The position numbers and the translations under genes were made by a program. The notes beneath the pieces were generated by a model, which did not search any database, had not been told where the DNA came from, and was given only the letters and a program-made list of their open reading frames with translations. Below are positions 17,905 through 24,682 of a DNA stretch of 64,000 nucleotides, piece by piece. The first letter of the stretch is position 1; the number at the start of each line of letters is the position of its first letter. Where the stretch lies: contig JAFARC010000018.1 in the NCBI GenBank assembly GCA_019245755.1, forward strand, positions 22,926-86,925. The letters run 5' to 3'. This DNA comes from Mycobacteriaceae bacterium. GTDB taxonomy: Bacteria > Actinomycetota > Actinomycetes > Mycobacteriales > Mycobacteriaceae.

Positions 17905-18175
17905 CAGCAAATCGGCCGATGACAACGACGGTTTGCTTGCCGGTGGCGCCGGAAAAGCTTGTTTTCACACAGATCGTTACGAGACCGGCAGTACCGAAAG
18001 TGGCTACCGGTCGATCGCCGCAATTTGCCTGCTAGAGCGGCAAGAAGGACAGTACGGTGGTCTGGTGTCGGCCGCTCACCGAACCCCGCGAGCCACCGCG
18101 ATTCTGCAGTTACGATAATTTTTCGGTCGTTTGCACTTGGTTGAGAGCAAAACACTCGCTACCATGAGCAGCAAA
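17905..18175. promoter_or_regulatory. espR upstream region with multiple TTTGC motifs (candidate EspR sites)
   Basis: TTTGCTG on minus strand at 17905-17911 and 18169-18175, plus GTTTGCTTG (about 17931), ATTTGCCTG (about 18023), GTTTGCACT (about 18129). Confidence 0.5.
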
Positions 18176-18223: not shown

Positions 18224-18622
18224 ATGAGCAAGACGTTCGCAGCCCGTCTGAACCGCCTGTTCGACACGGTGTACCCGCCAGGCCGCGGACCGCATACATC
18301 GGCGGAGGTCATCGCTGCGCTCAAGGCGGAGGGCGTCACGATGTCCGCCCCGTACCTGTCACAGCTGCGGTCGGGCAACCGAACAAACCCGTCGGCGGCG
18401 ACCATGGCGGCCCTTGCCAACTTCTTCCGCATCAAGCCGGCGTATTTCACCGACGATGACTACTACGAAAAGCTCGACAGGGAGTTGACCTGGCTCGCCA
18501 GCATGCGCGACGAGGGCGTGCGGCGCATTGCGGCGCGTACCGTCGGCTTGTCGCCGCAGGCCCAGGACGACCTCGTCGCCAGGGTTGAGGAGTTGCGCCG
18601 CAAAGAGCACCTCGACGATTAG
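18224..18622 (+). CDS. espR: Nucleoid-associated XRE-type regulator EspR (132 aa)
   Basis: MSKTFAARLNRLFDTVYPPGRGPHTSAEVIAALKAEGVTMSAPYLSQLRSGNRTNPSAATMAALANFFRIKPAYFTDDDYYEKLD; near-identical HTH to Rv3849. Confidence 0.95.
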   Translation: MSKTFAARLNRLFDTVYPPGRGPHTSAEVIAALKAEGVTMSAPYLSQLRSGNRTNPSAATMAALANFFRIKPAYFTDDDYYEKLDRELTWLASMRDEGVRRIAARTVGLSPQAQDDLVARVEELRRKEHLDD

Positions 18623-18634
18623 CCGGACCCCGCA

Positions 18635-19774
18635 CTACCCCGGCATCCGGCGAAGTTCGGCGGGGTCGGGCCGCAGCTGCGGTCGGCGTTCCCGGCCCAG
18701 TCGGCGGTATTGCACGGCAATCTCTAGAATCCATTCGCGGTCGGAGTAGGCCTGCGGTTGGCGCAGCCAACCCAATCCCGGAAAAGGCGTCTGCCCGTAG
18801 CCGTGAGAGCCGCTGTCGTATATCCATTGGGCGATTCTGCGGGCCTGGTCTTGCGGCGCGACGGGCGCCGCCTCAGCGGCGACGTCCGCGGTTGGATCCG
18901 ACGCCCGCGCCGCAGCGCTGGCCTCTAAAAACAGCGCGTCGGAAATTAGCGACATCCGTTCGGCCACCCGGAAAGCCAGCGGCCCCCGCGGCCGGACGCC
19001 GATACCGACCTCGGGCTGGCGGCGCACCAGCTCACGAAGGAGCGGGTCGATGGCGCGCAGCTCCCGTCGGGCGCCGAACCAATCTTCGACGGTGGGTAGC
19101 AGCGACCCCGCGGCCACCACGACCATCGCGCAGGCCAGGAGCGTGATCGCGGAGCCGACCCCGACGAACCGGGTCGTCCCAACGGCCCGCAGCAGGAAGA
19201 AACCACTGGCCAGCACGATGAGACCGATCCCCATCGTGAACAAGAAAAGAGCACGCCCGCGGCGGCTTCGGTTGGAGTACCGCACCCCCGCCCACGACAC
19301 CACACTCAACGCAAACAGCACGTACAGCAGCGGCAGCAGCCATGGCAGCGAAGTGTGCGACCGCAAATTCCGCAAAAGATACATCTGCGGCGCCATCTCG
19401 GGCTGCTGGCCGTCGGCGAAGAACAAGACCACACTGATCGCGGCGATCACCAACGCCACGCCGTAATGGGCCCAGGCCAGCCGCCGGGTCACGGCGGGCT
19501 TGCGCGCCGACGCGACGGTGAGGATCATCACGCAGCTGGCGGCGGCGCACAGCGTCAACGCGACCTGCGAGAAAGCGATCGAGATGTTGGGCCAGCGCGC
19601 CACGGTGTCGATCAGCAGGGTGAGCGGTTGCCAGTTCAGGGCAGCGACCACCGCGAGGCTTCCCAGCGCGAGCATCATGGCGGCACTGACCACGGATTGC
19701 TTGTTGACCAGTGCCCAGCCGATGCGTAGCCCGGTCGCCACCCCGAGGAGGGCGGCAATCACCCAAACGATCAA
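18635..19774 (-). CDS. Seven-TM membrane protein with C-terminal cytosolic domain, MAB_1171c/DUF6545-like
   Basis: Seven hydrophobic segments, then ELRAIDPLLRELVRRQPEVG and AFRVAERMSLISDALFLE; TTG start overlaps upstream TGA (TTGA). Confidence 0.7.
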   Translation of the reverse strand: MIVWVIAALLGVATGLRIGWALVNKQSVVSAAMMLALGSLAVVAALNWQPLTLLIDTVARWPNISIAFSQVALTLCAAASCVMILTVASARKPAVTRRLAWAHYGVALVIAAISVVLFFADGQQPEMAPQMYLLRNLRSHTSLPWLLPLLYVLFALSVVSWAGVRYSNRSRRGRALFLFTMGIGLIVLASGFFLLRAVGTTRFVGVGSAITLLACAMVVVAAGSLLPTVEDWFGARRELRAIDPLLRELVRRQPEVGIGVRPRGPLAFRVAERMSLISDALFLEASAAARASDPTADVAAEAAPVAPQDQARRIAQWIYDSGSHGYGQTPFPGLGWLRQPQAYSDREWILEIAVQYRRLGRERRPQLRPDPAELRRMPG

Positions 19775-20262
19775 CCAAACGCCTCTCCAAGGCGCACCTG
19801 AACGATCGATGAACGATCGGACGGCAGCCGGCCGAGCCGGTAACTGAGCAGCGCGGCGAAGTCCTCTGCCTCCTGCTCCGCCTCCTCACCACTTGGGCCC
19901 ATGCAGCCTGTGCGTTGGTTGAGCATGTATCCGATCAGGTCATCGCTGGCCAGTTCGGTGGTGTCCCGGGCGGCCTGGACCACTGGAATCCCTTGATGCC
20001 CGAGGACCAGGTGACCCAGTTCGTGCGCAAGCGTGCGGTCCCACGCCGGCAACCCCTTCTGGATCAGAAATACATCGTGATCGGCATACTGTCGCCACTG
20101 ACCGCACACACCGGGCGGCAGATCGGCCATTTCGATGTCGATTGGCCGACCACGGCTGTCGCTGACCGCGTCGACCAGCCGAAGGATTGACACTTCACCC
20201 CGGCGGGGAGCCAGTTCGAGCACGGCTCCTACCGCATTGGCGACCCTGCGACTGGCAGGCAT
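19771..20262 (-). CDS. ImmA/IrrE family metallo-endopeptidase
   Basis: DRTLAHELGHLVLGHQG (HExxH); start MPASRRVANAVG preceded by GGAAAGGGGG ribosome binding site. Confidence 0.82.
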   Translation of the reverse strand: MPASRRVANAVGAVLELAPRRGEVSILRLVDAVSDSRGRPIDIEMADLPPGVCGQWRQYADHDVFLIQKGLPAWDRTLAHELGHLVLGHQGIPVVQAARDTTELASDDLIGYMLNQRTGCMGPSGEEAEQEAEDFAALLSYRLGRLPSDRSSIVQVRLGEAFG

Positions 20263-20321
20263 GCGACCCCCTTTCCATTCCCTCTCCCAAGCGGTAAGGG
20301 TAGCCAACCCGGTCATGGCGA

Positions 20322-21275
20322 TTACTGAAGGAAGCGCGCTATGCCTTCGGTTCGGACCACATGACCGGCTTTGGCCTGTCGATATCCAATGAAACCCCCG
20401 CCCGCCGTCAACAGCAATATGCCGGCGACGCCGGGCACGGCGAGCGCCGCCATCTCCGCCACCCCCGCGGTCCGCAGGTATTCGCTATAGCCGGCCCGGA
20501 ATGACTCCGACAGACCGACGCTGCGGCCCACCTCGGCTGGCACCGGCTCGATCGACGACTTCAACCGTTCACTGTTCGCCGGTGACGGGTTGTTGGGTGG
20601 GGCGCCCGGCGAGCCCTGCGTCGACGGGGCGCGTGGACTGGAGCCGGCGCCGACCTCAAGGGCCGGTGGCGGCACAACCAGAGGCAGCGTCAGCACCGGC
20701 GGTTCGGTGTGGGGCACGGAAGCTTCGGCCGGTCCGGCGGTCGCACCGCCGATGTCGGGTTCGACCGGACCCGGCTGCGGCTGCAGCGGCGGCCCGGGCA
20801 CGATAACCGGCGGCGGCCGTTGGCCGCCGTGGTGCGACGGAGCACTGGAACCTCCGCTGCCGGGAGGTGGTTGGCCGAGCCCGCCTCCACCGCCGCCACC
20901 GCCGTGGTCGCACGGATCGTGCGGATCTTTGCTCCCGCCGGAGCCCTCACCAGACTGTCCGTCGGGAGGCTGACCGGGCCGGCGCTGCGGCCGGCCGTCG
21001 CCACGCCGCCACGCGCTGATGCCCTGCACGGAGCCACCCTTACTGTCACTCGCGGCGCCGCCGCTTTCGCCGCTCAACCCCGAGCGGCCGCTGTCATGCT
21101 GGCCCATGCCACCAGGATCGGCGACAGCGATCACGACGCTGCGACCGGCCGCCAGCATGCCGCCGGCGATGACGCAGGCGGCCGCCGCGTACTGCAGCCC
21201 CGACCGTTCCACAGTCTCCCTCACCCGCACCTCCGAGGCCTTGCTCGTCGTCGAGATGCTGCGTGATTGTCGCAT
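20322..21275 (-). CDS. Secreted/membrane-anchored Gly/Pro-rich mycobacterial protein
   Basis: N-terminal hydrophobic helix, low-complexity G/P/S core, C-terminal TM ALAVPGVAGILLLTAGGGFIGYRQAKAGHVVRTEGIARFLQ; start uncertain. Confidence 0.62.
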   Translation of the reverse strand: MRQSRSISTTSKASEVRVRETVERSGLQYAAAACVIAGGMLAAGRSVVIAVADPGGMGQHDSGRSGLSGESGGAASDSKGGSVQGISAWRRGDGRPQRRPGQPPDGQSGEGSGGSKDPHDPCDHGGGGGGGGLGQPPPGSGGSSAPSHHGGQRPPPVIVPGPPLQPQPGPVEPDIGGATAGPAEASVPHTEPPVLTLPLVVPPPALEVGAGSSPRAPSTQGSPGAPPNNPSPANSERLKSSIEPVPAEVGRSVGLSESFRAGYSEYLRTAGVAEMAALAVPGVAGILLLTAGGGFIGYRQAKAGHVVRTEGIARFLQ

Positions 21276-21388
21276 ATCCGATGCCCCACTCTGCCCGCAT
21301 CGGCCGAACGCAGTGGGGTTTGCCGGTGGGCGTTAGGGTTGACCCACAACCGCCGTGCGCCGATGAAACGACCGGGAGGCAAGCCGGG

Positions 21389-22042
21389 ATGGGCCCGTTC
21401 AACAAGAAGAGCCGAGCGACCCGGCGAGCGCAGGCACGTGCGCTCAAGCGGCGCGCCAAGCTCGACGCCAAATATGCGGCCCGCAACGAGCGGCGACGCA
21501 TGCGCTCCGCCGAGCGGTCCGCGCAGAGGGCGCTCAAGGCCCAGCTGAAGGCCCAACGTGACAGCGACAAGGCGGCAGTGCAGGCCGCCGAGGCCCAGCT
21601 GAAGGCGGCCAGGGAAGGCAGATTGCTGTCTCCGACCCGGATTAGACGGATGCTGACGGTGTCGCGATTGCTCGCCCCAATCGTCGTGCCACTGGTGTAT
21701 CGCGCCTCCATCGCTGCCCGCGGGTGGCTCGACGAACGCCGCGCGGACCGGTTGGGGGTACCGGTGAGCGAAGTTGGGCGCTTCTCCGGACACGGGTCAC
21801 GACTGTCGGCGCGCATCGCCGGAGCCGAGCAGTCGCTGCGTCTTGTTCGCGACAAGAACCCAAAAGACGCTGAGACCAAGCAGTTCGCCGCCGCGGTCGG
21901 CGAGAAACTCGCCGACCTGTCGGCCGCGGTGGCCGCCGCCGAAAACATGCCCGCCGCCCGGCGTCGCGCCGCGCACGACGCAATAGCTGAGCAACTCGAC
22001 GGCATCGACGCTGACCTGATGGCTCGCCTCGGATTGAGCTGA
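21389..22042 (+). CDS. DUF6474-type conserved protein (Rv3850-like)
   Basis: MGPFNKKSRATRRAQARALKRRAKLDAKYAARNERRR; coiled basic N-terminus. Confidence 0.75.
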   Translation: MGPFNKKSRATRRAQARALKRRAKLDAKYAARNERRRMRSAERSAQRALKAQLKAQRDSDKAAVQAAEAQLKAAREGRLLSPTRIRRMLTVSRLLAPIVVPLVYRASIAARGWLDERRADRLGVPVSEVGRFSGHGSRLSARIAGAEQSLRLVRDKNPKDAETKQFAAAVGEKLADLSAAVAAAENMPAARRRAAHDAIAEQLDGIDADLMARLGLS

Positions 22043-22608: not shown

Positions 22609-23250
22609 ATGACCCGCAGTATGCGGGCGTTTTCGCGCGCCCTGAGTACCACCGCGGCCACCGCCGCAGCCTTTTCCATCGCCCTGTTCGCCGGCGCCGC
22701 GCCGGCCTGGGCCCATGTCCATGTCGACGCCGATCACGCCCAGCGCGGTGCCGAGACGGTGCTGACGTTCGAGGTGCCCAACGAGTCTGACACCGGCGCT
22801 TTGACCACCCAGCTGAGCGTCGAGTTGCCGAACCCGACCTCGGCGCAAGCTGAAGTCACGCCCGGGTGGACCGCCCGCCTGGACCGTGATGTCAGCGCCG
22901 GCACCGTACGATCGGTGACCTGGACCGCCGCACCCGGGGCCGGCATCTCCCCCGATCAGTTCGCGCTGTTTCGGATCAGCGCCACGCTGCCGAACAGCGC
23001 CACGGCGAGTTACCCGGCGACACAAACATACTCCGACGGCACGGTCGTGAAATGGGACCAGCCACCGCTGCCGAGCGGCGGCGAGCCCGACCATCCGGTG
23101 CCGACGCTGACACTGTCGGCCGAGCCGCAGGCGCAGCAGCCGGCGCCCCGCACCGCAGACCACACCGCCCTGTGGGTCGCCATCGTCGGTGTGGTCATCG
23201 GCGTGGCGGGCGTGGTGCTCGGCCTGCTGAACTGGCGTCGACGGGTGTGA
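22609..23250 (+). CDS. YcnI family (DUF1775) periplasmic copper-binding protein
   Basis: Signal peptide ending AWA|HVHVDADHAQRGAETVLTFEVPNES; VVKWDQPP; C-terminal TM. Confidence 0.87.
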   Translation: MTRSMRAFSRALSTTAATAAAFSIALFAGAAPAWAHVHVDADHAQRGAETVLTFEVPNESDTGALTTQLSVELPNPTSAQAEVTPGWTARLDRDVSAGTVRSVTWTAAPGAGISPDQFALFRISATLPNSATASYPATQTYSDGTVVKWDQPPLPSGGEPDHPVPTLTLSAEPQAQQPAPRTADHTALWVAIVGVVIGVAGVVLGLLNWRRRV

Positions 23251-23762
23251 TGAGAGCGACGGCGGCGGCGGTGCTCGTCGCGGTGCTGACGATCATTGCG
23301 CTGGCGGCTGCGCCTGCGGCGTCGGCACATGCGACCCGCATCGCCGTCGACCCGGCCCAGAACGCGTCGCTGACCACCGGGCCCGCGCAGGTCAGCGCCA
23401 CGTTCAACGAACCGCTGCAGACCACCTTCGCGGCGATGACGGTGGTTGGCCCGGACGGCAACCTTTGGTCCACCGGGGACCCTCGGATCCAGGGGGCCAT
23501 CGTCAGCGTCGCGCTACGCCCGCTCGGACCGGTCGGTGTCTATACCGTCAACTACCGGGTCACCTCGGCCGACGGCCACGTGGTCGGCGGCTCATGGTCG
23601 TTTCGGCTGACCGCGCCGGGCACCGGCACACCGGGGCCGGCGGCATCGAGGCCGTCGGCGCCCGGCGGGCTCCCGGTCTGGCCGTTCATCGTGGCCGGCG
23701 TCGTGATTGTGGTCGGCGCCGCATGGTGGGTCGTGCGGCGGCAACCGAAACGCCGGGGATGA
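23250..23762 (+). CDS. CopC family copper resistance protein
   Basis: ASAHATRIAVDPAQNASL...YRVTSADGHVVGGSWSFRL; C-terminal TM; TGATG overlap. Confidence 0.88.
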   Translation: MRATAAAVLVAVLTIIALAAAPAASAHATRIAVDPAQNASLTTGPAQVSATFNEPLQTTFAAMTVVGPDGNLWSTGDPRIQGAIVSVALRPLGPVGVYTVNYRVTSADGHVVGGSWSFRLTAPGTGTPGPAASRPSAPGGLPVWPFIVAGVVIVVGAAWWVVRRQPKRRG

Positions 23763-24682
23763 GAACGGGATCGGTGCTCGCCGGCGCCCTGGCGATCATT
23801 GTGGTGTCGTGGCTGGCCGCGTTGGCGCTGGCCTACCGGTCGGGTGCTGCGGTCCCCACGCTGATCCGGGCGCTCGCCGACTGTGCCGCGGTGGCGACGT
23901 TCGGATTCGCGATCGTCCCGTCGCTCGACGACGGCCGTCGCCGCGCTGAGCTCGCCGACCGTGCGGCCGGACCGCTCACCGCGGCCGGCGCTGCCTGGCT
24001 GGTCGCGGAGGTCGGCCGTCAACTGGTCGCCGCCGCGCAGGCGACGGCATTGCCGATCACCCACCTGCCGTTGCGGATCGTGTCCGAGTTTTCGCTGCGC
24101 ACCACGCCCGGTCGTTCCGGCCTGGTGAGCATCGGCGCGGCGGCGGTGGTCTGTGTCGTGACGCTTACTGGCCGCCGGTCAGCACCGCTGCCAGCTGTCG
24201 TCGCCGGCGCCGCTGCGATCGGCATCGCCGCGCGTGCGGTGAGCGGGCACCTGTCGGGTAGCGCGGTGGGCGCCGTTGCGGTGGCGGCGCACGCGCTGGC
24301 AGCGGCCGCCTGGTGCGGCGGTCTCGCCGCGCTGCTGGTGACCGTTCGGCACCGCGGCCGATGGGCACGCGTGCTGCCGCCGTTCTCCCGACTCGCGCTG
24401 ATCTGCGTCGTGGTATTGCTGGCCAGCGGCGCCGTCGGCGCTGTGGTGGTGCTCGATTCGCCGTCGCAATTGTGGGCCACCGGCTACGGCCGTGTGCTGT
24501 CGGCCAAGGTTGGGCTCGCGGCGGGGCTGTTGGTGCTGGCCTGGTTCAACCGCAGCGGATGGCTGCCGGCCGCGCGCTCTCACCGGGCAAGTGCCGAAAT
24601 GTCGGTGAACCGGTCCGCCACCGAGGTGGCCGTCATGGTCGTCGCGCTGACGATGGCCGCCGCACTGGTCGTCACGGGCTGA
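23759..24682 (+). CDS. CopD family copper transport membrane protein
   Basis: ATGA overlap with copC; 8 or so TM segments, GLVSIGAAAVVCV, SAKVGLAAGLLVLAWFNR. Confidence 0.83.
   Translation: MRTGSVLAGALAIIVVSWLAALALAYRSGAAVPTLIRALADCAAVATFGFAIVPSLDDGRRRAELADRAAGPLTAAGAAWLVAEVGRQLVAAAQATALPITHLPLRIVSEFSLRTTPGRSGLVSIGAAAVVCVVTLTGRRSAPLPAVVAGAAAIGIAARAVSGHLSGSAVGAVAVAAHALAAAAWCGGLAALLVTVRHRGRWARVLPPFSRLALICVVVLLASGAVGAVVVLDSPSQLWATGYGRVLSAKVGLAAGLLVLAWFNRSGWLPAARSHRASAEMSVNRSATEVAVMVVALTMAAALVVTG

Follow-up and report, generated by a model that had tools for sequence, protein, structure and literature searches.

In a 64,000-nucleotide stretch of the genome of a Mycobacteriaceae bacterium (assembly GCA_019245755.1, contig JAFARC010000018.1, positions 22,926 to 86,925 of the forward strand; this whole stretch is 'the window' below), the gene for the helix-turn-helix (HTH) regulator EspR is met head-on by three genes of the opposite strand, which encode a protein with seven transmembrane (TM) segments, here termed the 7-TM protein, a small zinc peptidase of the ImmA/IrrE type and a bitopic Gly/Pro-rich envelope protein. 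The reading that we favour, at a probability of a little over 60%, is that the four genes constitute a membrane-to-nucleoid signalling module, with EspR as its DNA-binding arm and the peptidase cleaving or inactivating EspR. The module itself and the kinship of its parts are established by genomics, i.e., by linkage, co-inheritance, conservation of the catalytic site, architecture and EspR sites.

Is this relevant to EspR of M. tuberculosis? For its control a secretion-based feedback was proposed and later contradicted, and EspR levels vary with growth phase (PMC3315491). That protein has been studied as an orphan nucleoid-associated protein with no protease or 7-TM partner described, and in the literature searched no paper was found that joins EspR with ImmA or IrrE. 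With its likely cognate protease and membrane proteins present in related non-tuberculous species, the control of EspR becomes directly testable. An evolutionary origin is also offered for this key virulence regulator, and a function is suggested for the DUF6545/MAB_1171c membrane family, namely to pass a signal, via a protease, to an HTH regulator; the literature searched held one paper for MAB_1171c and none that mentions DUF6545.

The four genes at the espR locus

The nearest named relatives of the window are Mycolicibacterium, and it belongs to Mycobacterium in the GTDB sense. The features of the locus are as follows.

18224..18622, plus strand: espR, nucleoid-associated HTH regulator (HTH about residues 1-80, linker 81-104, dimerisation region 105-132)
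18635..19774, minus strand: gene of the 7-TM protein, DUF6545/MAB_1171c-like (sub-threshold), a putative membrane sensor
19771..20262, minus strand: gene of the ImmA/IrrE-like (M78) zinc peptidase with HELGH, 163 amino acids
20322..21275, minus strand: gene of the bitopic Gly/Pro-rich envelope protein, with two hydrophobic segments
20325..20387, minus strand: conserved cytoplasmic tail of the bitopic protein, GYRQAKAGHVVRTEGIARFLQ, with related tails in sister genera
21276..21388, no strand assigned: intergenic stretch between the operon and Rv3850, the probable operon promoter
21319..21325, plus strand: EspR consensus TTTGC[TC][GA], 44 base pairs (bp) upstream of the bitopic-protein start
18169..18175, minus strand: EspR consensus site upstream of espR, of the autoregulatory type, from a motif scan
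17905..17911, minus strand: second EspR consensus site upstream of espR, from the same kind of scan

The window's EspR has both the HTH and the C-terminal dimerisation domain, matches the solved M. tuberculosis EspR chains in the PDB across 131 residues (E value 1e-66) and is about 80% identical to that protein (Rv3849), with the same DNA-binding domain and autoregulation motif class. It lies in the conserved context of sodA-Rv3847, espR and Rv3850. The initial annotation had placed three minus-strand genes between espR and Rv3850, and the coordinates bear this out, Rv3850 (DUF6474, E 7e-75) starting on the plus strand at 21389, beyond all three. Two further details that it gave are also there in the sequence: the TTGA overlap, in which the TTG start of the 7-TM gene is joined to the stop of the peptidase gene, and the mere 12 bp that separate the stop codons of espR and the 7-TM gene. 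The ribosome site AAAGGGGG favours the peptidase ATG at 20262 over a longer frame reaching 20316. From this layout the bitopic, peptidase and 7-TM genes are read as a probable single operon, whose promoter must lie in the 300 bp before Rv3850.

As both the peptidase and the 7-TM protein score below curated family cut-offs (the figures are given below where the reading is weighed), the names assigned to them needed independent support, and membership in M78 and in DUF6545/MAB_1171c rests on relatives, invariant residues and fold rather than on the window proteins alone. For the peptidase, H80, E81, H84 and E129, i.e., the HExxH motif and the downstream glutamate ligand of Peptidase_M78, are invariant in 55 diverse relatives with identity down to 18%, and 33 of the 55 match PF06114 at E 0.01 or better. 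Loss of the zinc site in orthologues had been named as something that would count against the proposal; the site is kept. The structure model (predicted local distance difference test, pLDDT, 82.9) has as its best solved fold match IrrE (3dti; probability 0.99). A sequence search of the PDB with the peptidase profile gave no match, and a PHROGs search only weak matches for the window proteins. A PF06114 search of the bacterium's own genome found just one unrelated peptidase and missed the one at espR, because of which absence in a Pfam scan is uninformative here.

The 7-TM protein has seven hydrophobic segments followed by a soluble C-terminal domain, as in MAB_1171c/DUF6545 proteins, and, again as for them, its gene is directly downstream of an M78 peptidase gene and close to an EspR-like HTH gene. 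Its model is confident (pLDDT 91.5), with seven membrane helices, the last continuing into a cytoplasmic helical C-terminal domain; the charges of the loops point to an N-out/C-in orientation, and R17 and D279 are invariant. The top solved matches are weak (E 0.01-0.1, TM-score 0.3-0.4) and are receptor-type seven-helix bundles, which we take as suggesting topology, not kinship, and there are no transporters among the top 50 fold matches.

The bitopic protein has an N-terminal TM segment, a low-complexity outer stretch, a C-terminal TM segment and a short basic cytoplasmic tail. Its gene was recognised at 62 of the 86 loci carrying the peptidase/7-TM pair, a minimum as the low-complexity middle defeats BLAST. 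At several loci of sister genera a gene upstream of the peptidase encodes a bitopic protein whose outer part is Gly/Pro/Asn-rich and which has a C-terminal TM segment; the tails there are short and of the form [YFH]RxAxxxxRxxxARxxF. The Gly/Pro bitopic protein, to which the initial annotation gave no mechanistic role, belongs to the unit.

EspR of M. tuberculosis regulates its own gene and many unlinked ones, with the consensus TTTGC[TC][GA] (PMC3315491). That consensus is about 10 times background in the 500 bp before espR, and 41 of 60 module genomes have it within the 300 bp that precede Rv3850, a number expected to be 6 and reaching at most 15 in 300 shuffles; the site has a similar position across genomes, and shared ancestry inflates counts of this kind. 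Across the whole window the motif is at chance level (15 versus 16), and only the two promoter regions stand out.

Recurrence, co-inheritance and loss

EspR was found in 147 of 149 Mycobacterium genomes, and the espR-locus peptidase (72-87% identity) and 7-TM protein (55-73%) each in about 85 of the 149, side by side and, wherever the locus was read, convergent on espR. The unit is present at 77 of 80 named espR loci, these being the 80 best by identity, with no M. tuberculosis record among them. This recurrence makes the window arrangement more than chance. Over 141 loci the peptidase is never kept without the 7-TM gene, and apart from one contig end the two are present or absent together; the partner genes go as one when they are lost. 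EspR is retained alone at more than 50 loci, and at the loci without the unit that were read, 51-220 bp separate espR from Rv3850, the two running in the same direction with no remnants between. On a tree of SodA, Rv3847 and Rv3850 unit presence needs three changes (about 29 in shuffles), one of which is the contig-end artefact. The unit is present in the M. abscessus-like group and in Mycolicibacterium lineages, and absent from one large and one smaller clade. At one locus (L061, of genome G002) there is a separate and apparently recent loss of the three genes inside a module-bearing Mycolicibacterium clade.

EspR of M. tuberculosis (PDB 3r1f) is nearest to the group lacking the unit, its 24 closest loci all being without the module. 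Slow-growing lineages, including M. tuberculosis by EspR similarity, appear to have lost the three partners and kept EspR as an orphan, where the lacking clades are equated with slow growers via EspR similarity, and absence from M. tuberculosis rests on that similarity and on the gene order of H37Rv, in which espR (Rv3849) is directly followed by Rv3850.

What of EspR relatives elsewhere? In 34 Mycobacterium genomes searched with EspR alone, 57 paralogue neighbourhoods were read and counted by hand, with neighbours taken up to a limit of about 2.6 kilobases and at profile cut-offs between E 1e-3 and 1e-5; a peptidase homologue is nearby in 34 of them. The usual order is EspR-like HTH, peptidase, MAB_1171c 7-TM, and in these modules the 7-TM protein is a clear or a near member of DUF6545/MAB_1171c. 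A second locus in M. abscessus-like genomes (L032, L033, L036, L037) has the peptidase and tandem 7-TM genes facing the EspR-like gene, a convergent plan as at espR; loci L034 and L035 have peptidase and 7-TM genes without EspR. When the search started instead from the 7-TM family, across class and family, most loci had the peptidase immediately upstream, with an EspR-profile HTH preceding the peptidase or facing the 7-TM gene. In sister genera the EspR orthologues (50-56% identity) are at other chromosomal places, with SodA, Rv3847 and Rv3850 not near, and yet a peptidase and/or 7-TM gene is present, mostly convergent, at 18 of the 26 loci read, which is a minimum as most of these loci are short. 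In other Mycobacteriaceae genera (L186-L189) a different MAB_1171c-type HTH/peptidase/7-TM module, with its own low-complexity membrane protein encoded divergently to it, occupies, in the sodA-Rv3850 region, the place of espR in Mycobacterium. The link between EspR and its partners is independent of the sodA-Rv3850 neighbourhood. The statement in the initial annotation that XRE regulators, ImmA/IrrE peptidases and MAB_1171c-like 7-TM proteins recur as neighbours is supported, and the convergent layout, which it held against a functional link, loses that force, as the same layout recurs at EspR orthologues of other genera in unrelated contexts.

Several other aspects of the paralogue loci may be recorded. 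Some operons run on downstream of the 7-TM gene, with a cytochrome P450 gene at L038, L039 and L043 followed at L039 by an O-methyltransferase gene, possible output genes of the paralogous modules. At L032, L036 and L037 there are two or three tandem 7-TM genes between the peptidase and the EspR-like gene, possibly several receptors feeding one protease. Loci L072-L083, L086-L088 and L096 hold duplicates of EspR (63-80%) and members of an EspR class at 47-50%, as well as frames of about 300-355 amino acids that end in an EspR-like domain, all with no peptidase nearby.

Two tests bear on how the family evolved. One is a tree built from 106 EspR-family proteins, with few columns and with single forks that are weak; its deep lineages carry the peptidase, and absence of the peptidase is confined to tips and inner clades, i.e., to the EspR subfamily and a few tips, with 12 changes compared with 29 in shuffles (the 'none' label of L037 is an artefact that the distance limit produced). 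Pairwise distances of the EspR-like proteins and the peptidases correlate over 61 thinned modules with r 0.76, which is reached in none of 2000 permutations (permuted maximum 0.31) and is what co-inheritance as a unit predicts; the corresponding figure for the 7-TM protein was computable on only 4 modules. The enrichment, the zinc site and the 106-protein tree together support the proposal, first made from the window, that EspR either serves as the regulator arm of a membrane-sensor/protease/HTH pathway or descends from one.

Constraint on EspR itself also tracks the module. Relative to three neighbouring genes, residues 81-131 evolve at 0.50 with the module and at 2.12 without it; for the linker (81-104) the two values are 0.26 and 1.79, and for the DNA-binding part (1-80) 0.20 and 0.28. 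The comparison is of window positions 18464-18619 (EspR residues 81-132) against loci L061-L071 and L321-L360. Recognition by a peptidase of the stretch that follows the HTH would account for such a shift.

A candidate proteolytic switch and its rivals

In Bacillus subtilis ICEBs1 the repressor ImmR is inactivated by proteolysis, for which ImmA is required (PMC2701414), and in Deinococcus the M78 peptidase IrrE cleaves the XRE repressor DdrO (PMC7907104). As the simplest account we model, on these two precedents, an inactivation of the EspR-type regulator by its peptidase under the control of a membrane complex; the signal, the contacts and the cleavage we infer. The bitopic Gly/Pro and 7-TM proteins in the cell membrane would sense or relay an envelope signal, upon which the cytoplasmic C-terminal domain of the latter would activate or recruit the peptidase, which in turn would cleave or inactivate EspR in the linker/dimerisation region just past the HTH. 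EspR oligomerisation would then change and with it the regulon, which would comprise espR itself and probably the operon of the three partners. A wider proposal, which we regard as evenly poised between right and wrong, is that this is an undescribed four-component transmembrane proteolytic switch across Mycobacteriaceae, and that EspR of M. tuberculosis is an orphan whose partners were lost near the base of the slow growers, freeing its linker/dimerisation region.

None of the closest known systems is the same. ImmR/ImmA is likewise an XRE regulator with a small M78 peptidase, but it has no 7-TM or bitopic protein and controls a mobile element, and ImmR is not a nucleoid-associated global regulator. 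IrrE/DdrO also pairs an M78 peptidase with an XRE regulator, but responds by a zinc/redox signal to radiation, with extra IrrE domains and no membrane partner. CapP/CapH of phage-defence loci pairs a peptidase with a small HTH protein, and has a defence context and no 7-TM protein, unlike the window module. In the actinobacterial neighbourhoods of MAB_1171c (NF042915)/DUF6545, an M78 peptidase and an EspR-like HTH directly precede a 7-TM protein with a DUF6545 domain, although the 7-TM protein at espR is a divergent subfamily under the cut-offs of the family proper.

A number of points weigh against the signalling reading. The window peptidase scores 17.4-17.8 bits with PF06114, below the 22-bit gathering score, and its fold match to IrrE is a modest one, with E 1.5e-3 and a query TM-score of 0.41. 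Of the ImmA/IrrE name the formal Pfam assignment fell, and what stands comes from relatives, invariant ligands and fold. Similarly the 7-TM protein, at 21.8 bits where DUF6545 requires 24.4 and 30 where MAB_1171c requires 100, is outside both families as formally bounded, and the part of that assignment which holds is its seven TM helices with soluble tail and its position. The vicinity of about 40% of EspR paralogues lacks a peptidase, so a protein of the EspR family can work without one. The acceleration of residues 81-131 is essentially that of one loss clade, one evolutionary event, and might stem from tasks that EspR newly took on in slow growers; a replicate was looked for in sister-genus EspR proteins without partners and was not seen. 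The effect on EspR may be cleavage or anti-repression, or EspR may itself be an activator.

Could the signalling unit be real and the substrate another protein? The cytoplasmic tail of the bitopic protein is conserved across genera, and it or some other repressor might be what the peptidase acts on, with EspR only regulating the operon; there are sites for EspR upstream of the operon, and EspR controls many unlinked genes (PMC3315491). We consider this unlikely, if deserving of attention. It is an EspR-family HTH protein, not the bitopic protein, that is the constant neighbour in co-directional modules, in the cases tested an M78 peptidase encoded beside an XRE regulator acts on that regulator (PMC2701414), and within Mycobacterium the constraint on EspR beyond its HTH follows the presence of the module. 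Alternatively, the 7-TM protein may be a transporter whose expression is all that the peptidase/EspR pair controls. The NCBI name of the MAB_1171c family (NF042915) is putative transporter, and biofilm formation is lower by about 50% in an M. abscessus MAB_1171c mutant, an effect ascribed to transport by the authors of that study (PMC8707978). The seven-helix bundle, the conserved soluble C-terminal domain, the N-out/C-in orientation and the weak receptor-like matches, with transporters numbering 0 in the top 50, render this quite improbable.

Very improbable, too, with no systematic search made for cyclase or effector neighbours, is a toxin-antitoxin-like or phage-defence pair of XRE protein and metalloprotease (Xre-COG2856 or CapH/CapP type), even with the proposal that Xre-COG2856 pairs are toxin-antitoxin-like (PMC2701414) and with weak best PADLOC matches, the two E values being 3e-4 and 1.4e-4, in which the peptidase hits CapP and EspR hits CapH. 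The locus is syntenic and core-like, not mobile, pairs of this kind do not usually come with a membrane architecture of four genes, and the partners are lost cleanly while EspR stays; the toxin-antitoxin reading was rejected as the pair is not addictive, EspR being alone at more than 50 loci and L034 and L035 being without EspR. Least credible of all is that a membrane/protease operon was inserted by chance as a three-gene passenger with no functional tie to EspR. Opposite strands, convergence on espR and clean absence in many species would suit such cargo, but the convergent set recurs at EspR orthologues of unrelated loci and around paralogues, and distances co-vary; with the paralogue neighbourhoods, the sister-genus loci, the distance correlation and the 106-protein tree, a passenger insertion is largely refuted.

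Beyond the locus, at 22609-24682 of the window, Rv3850 is adjoined by a run of YcnI/CopC/CopD-like genes, read from their translations, which looks ordinary.

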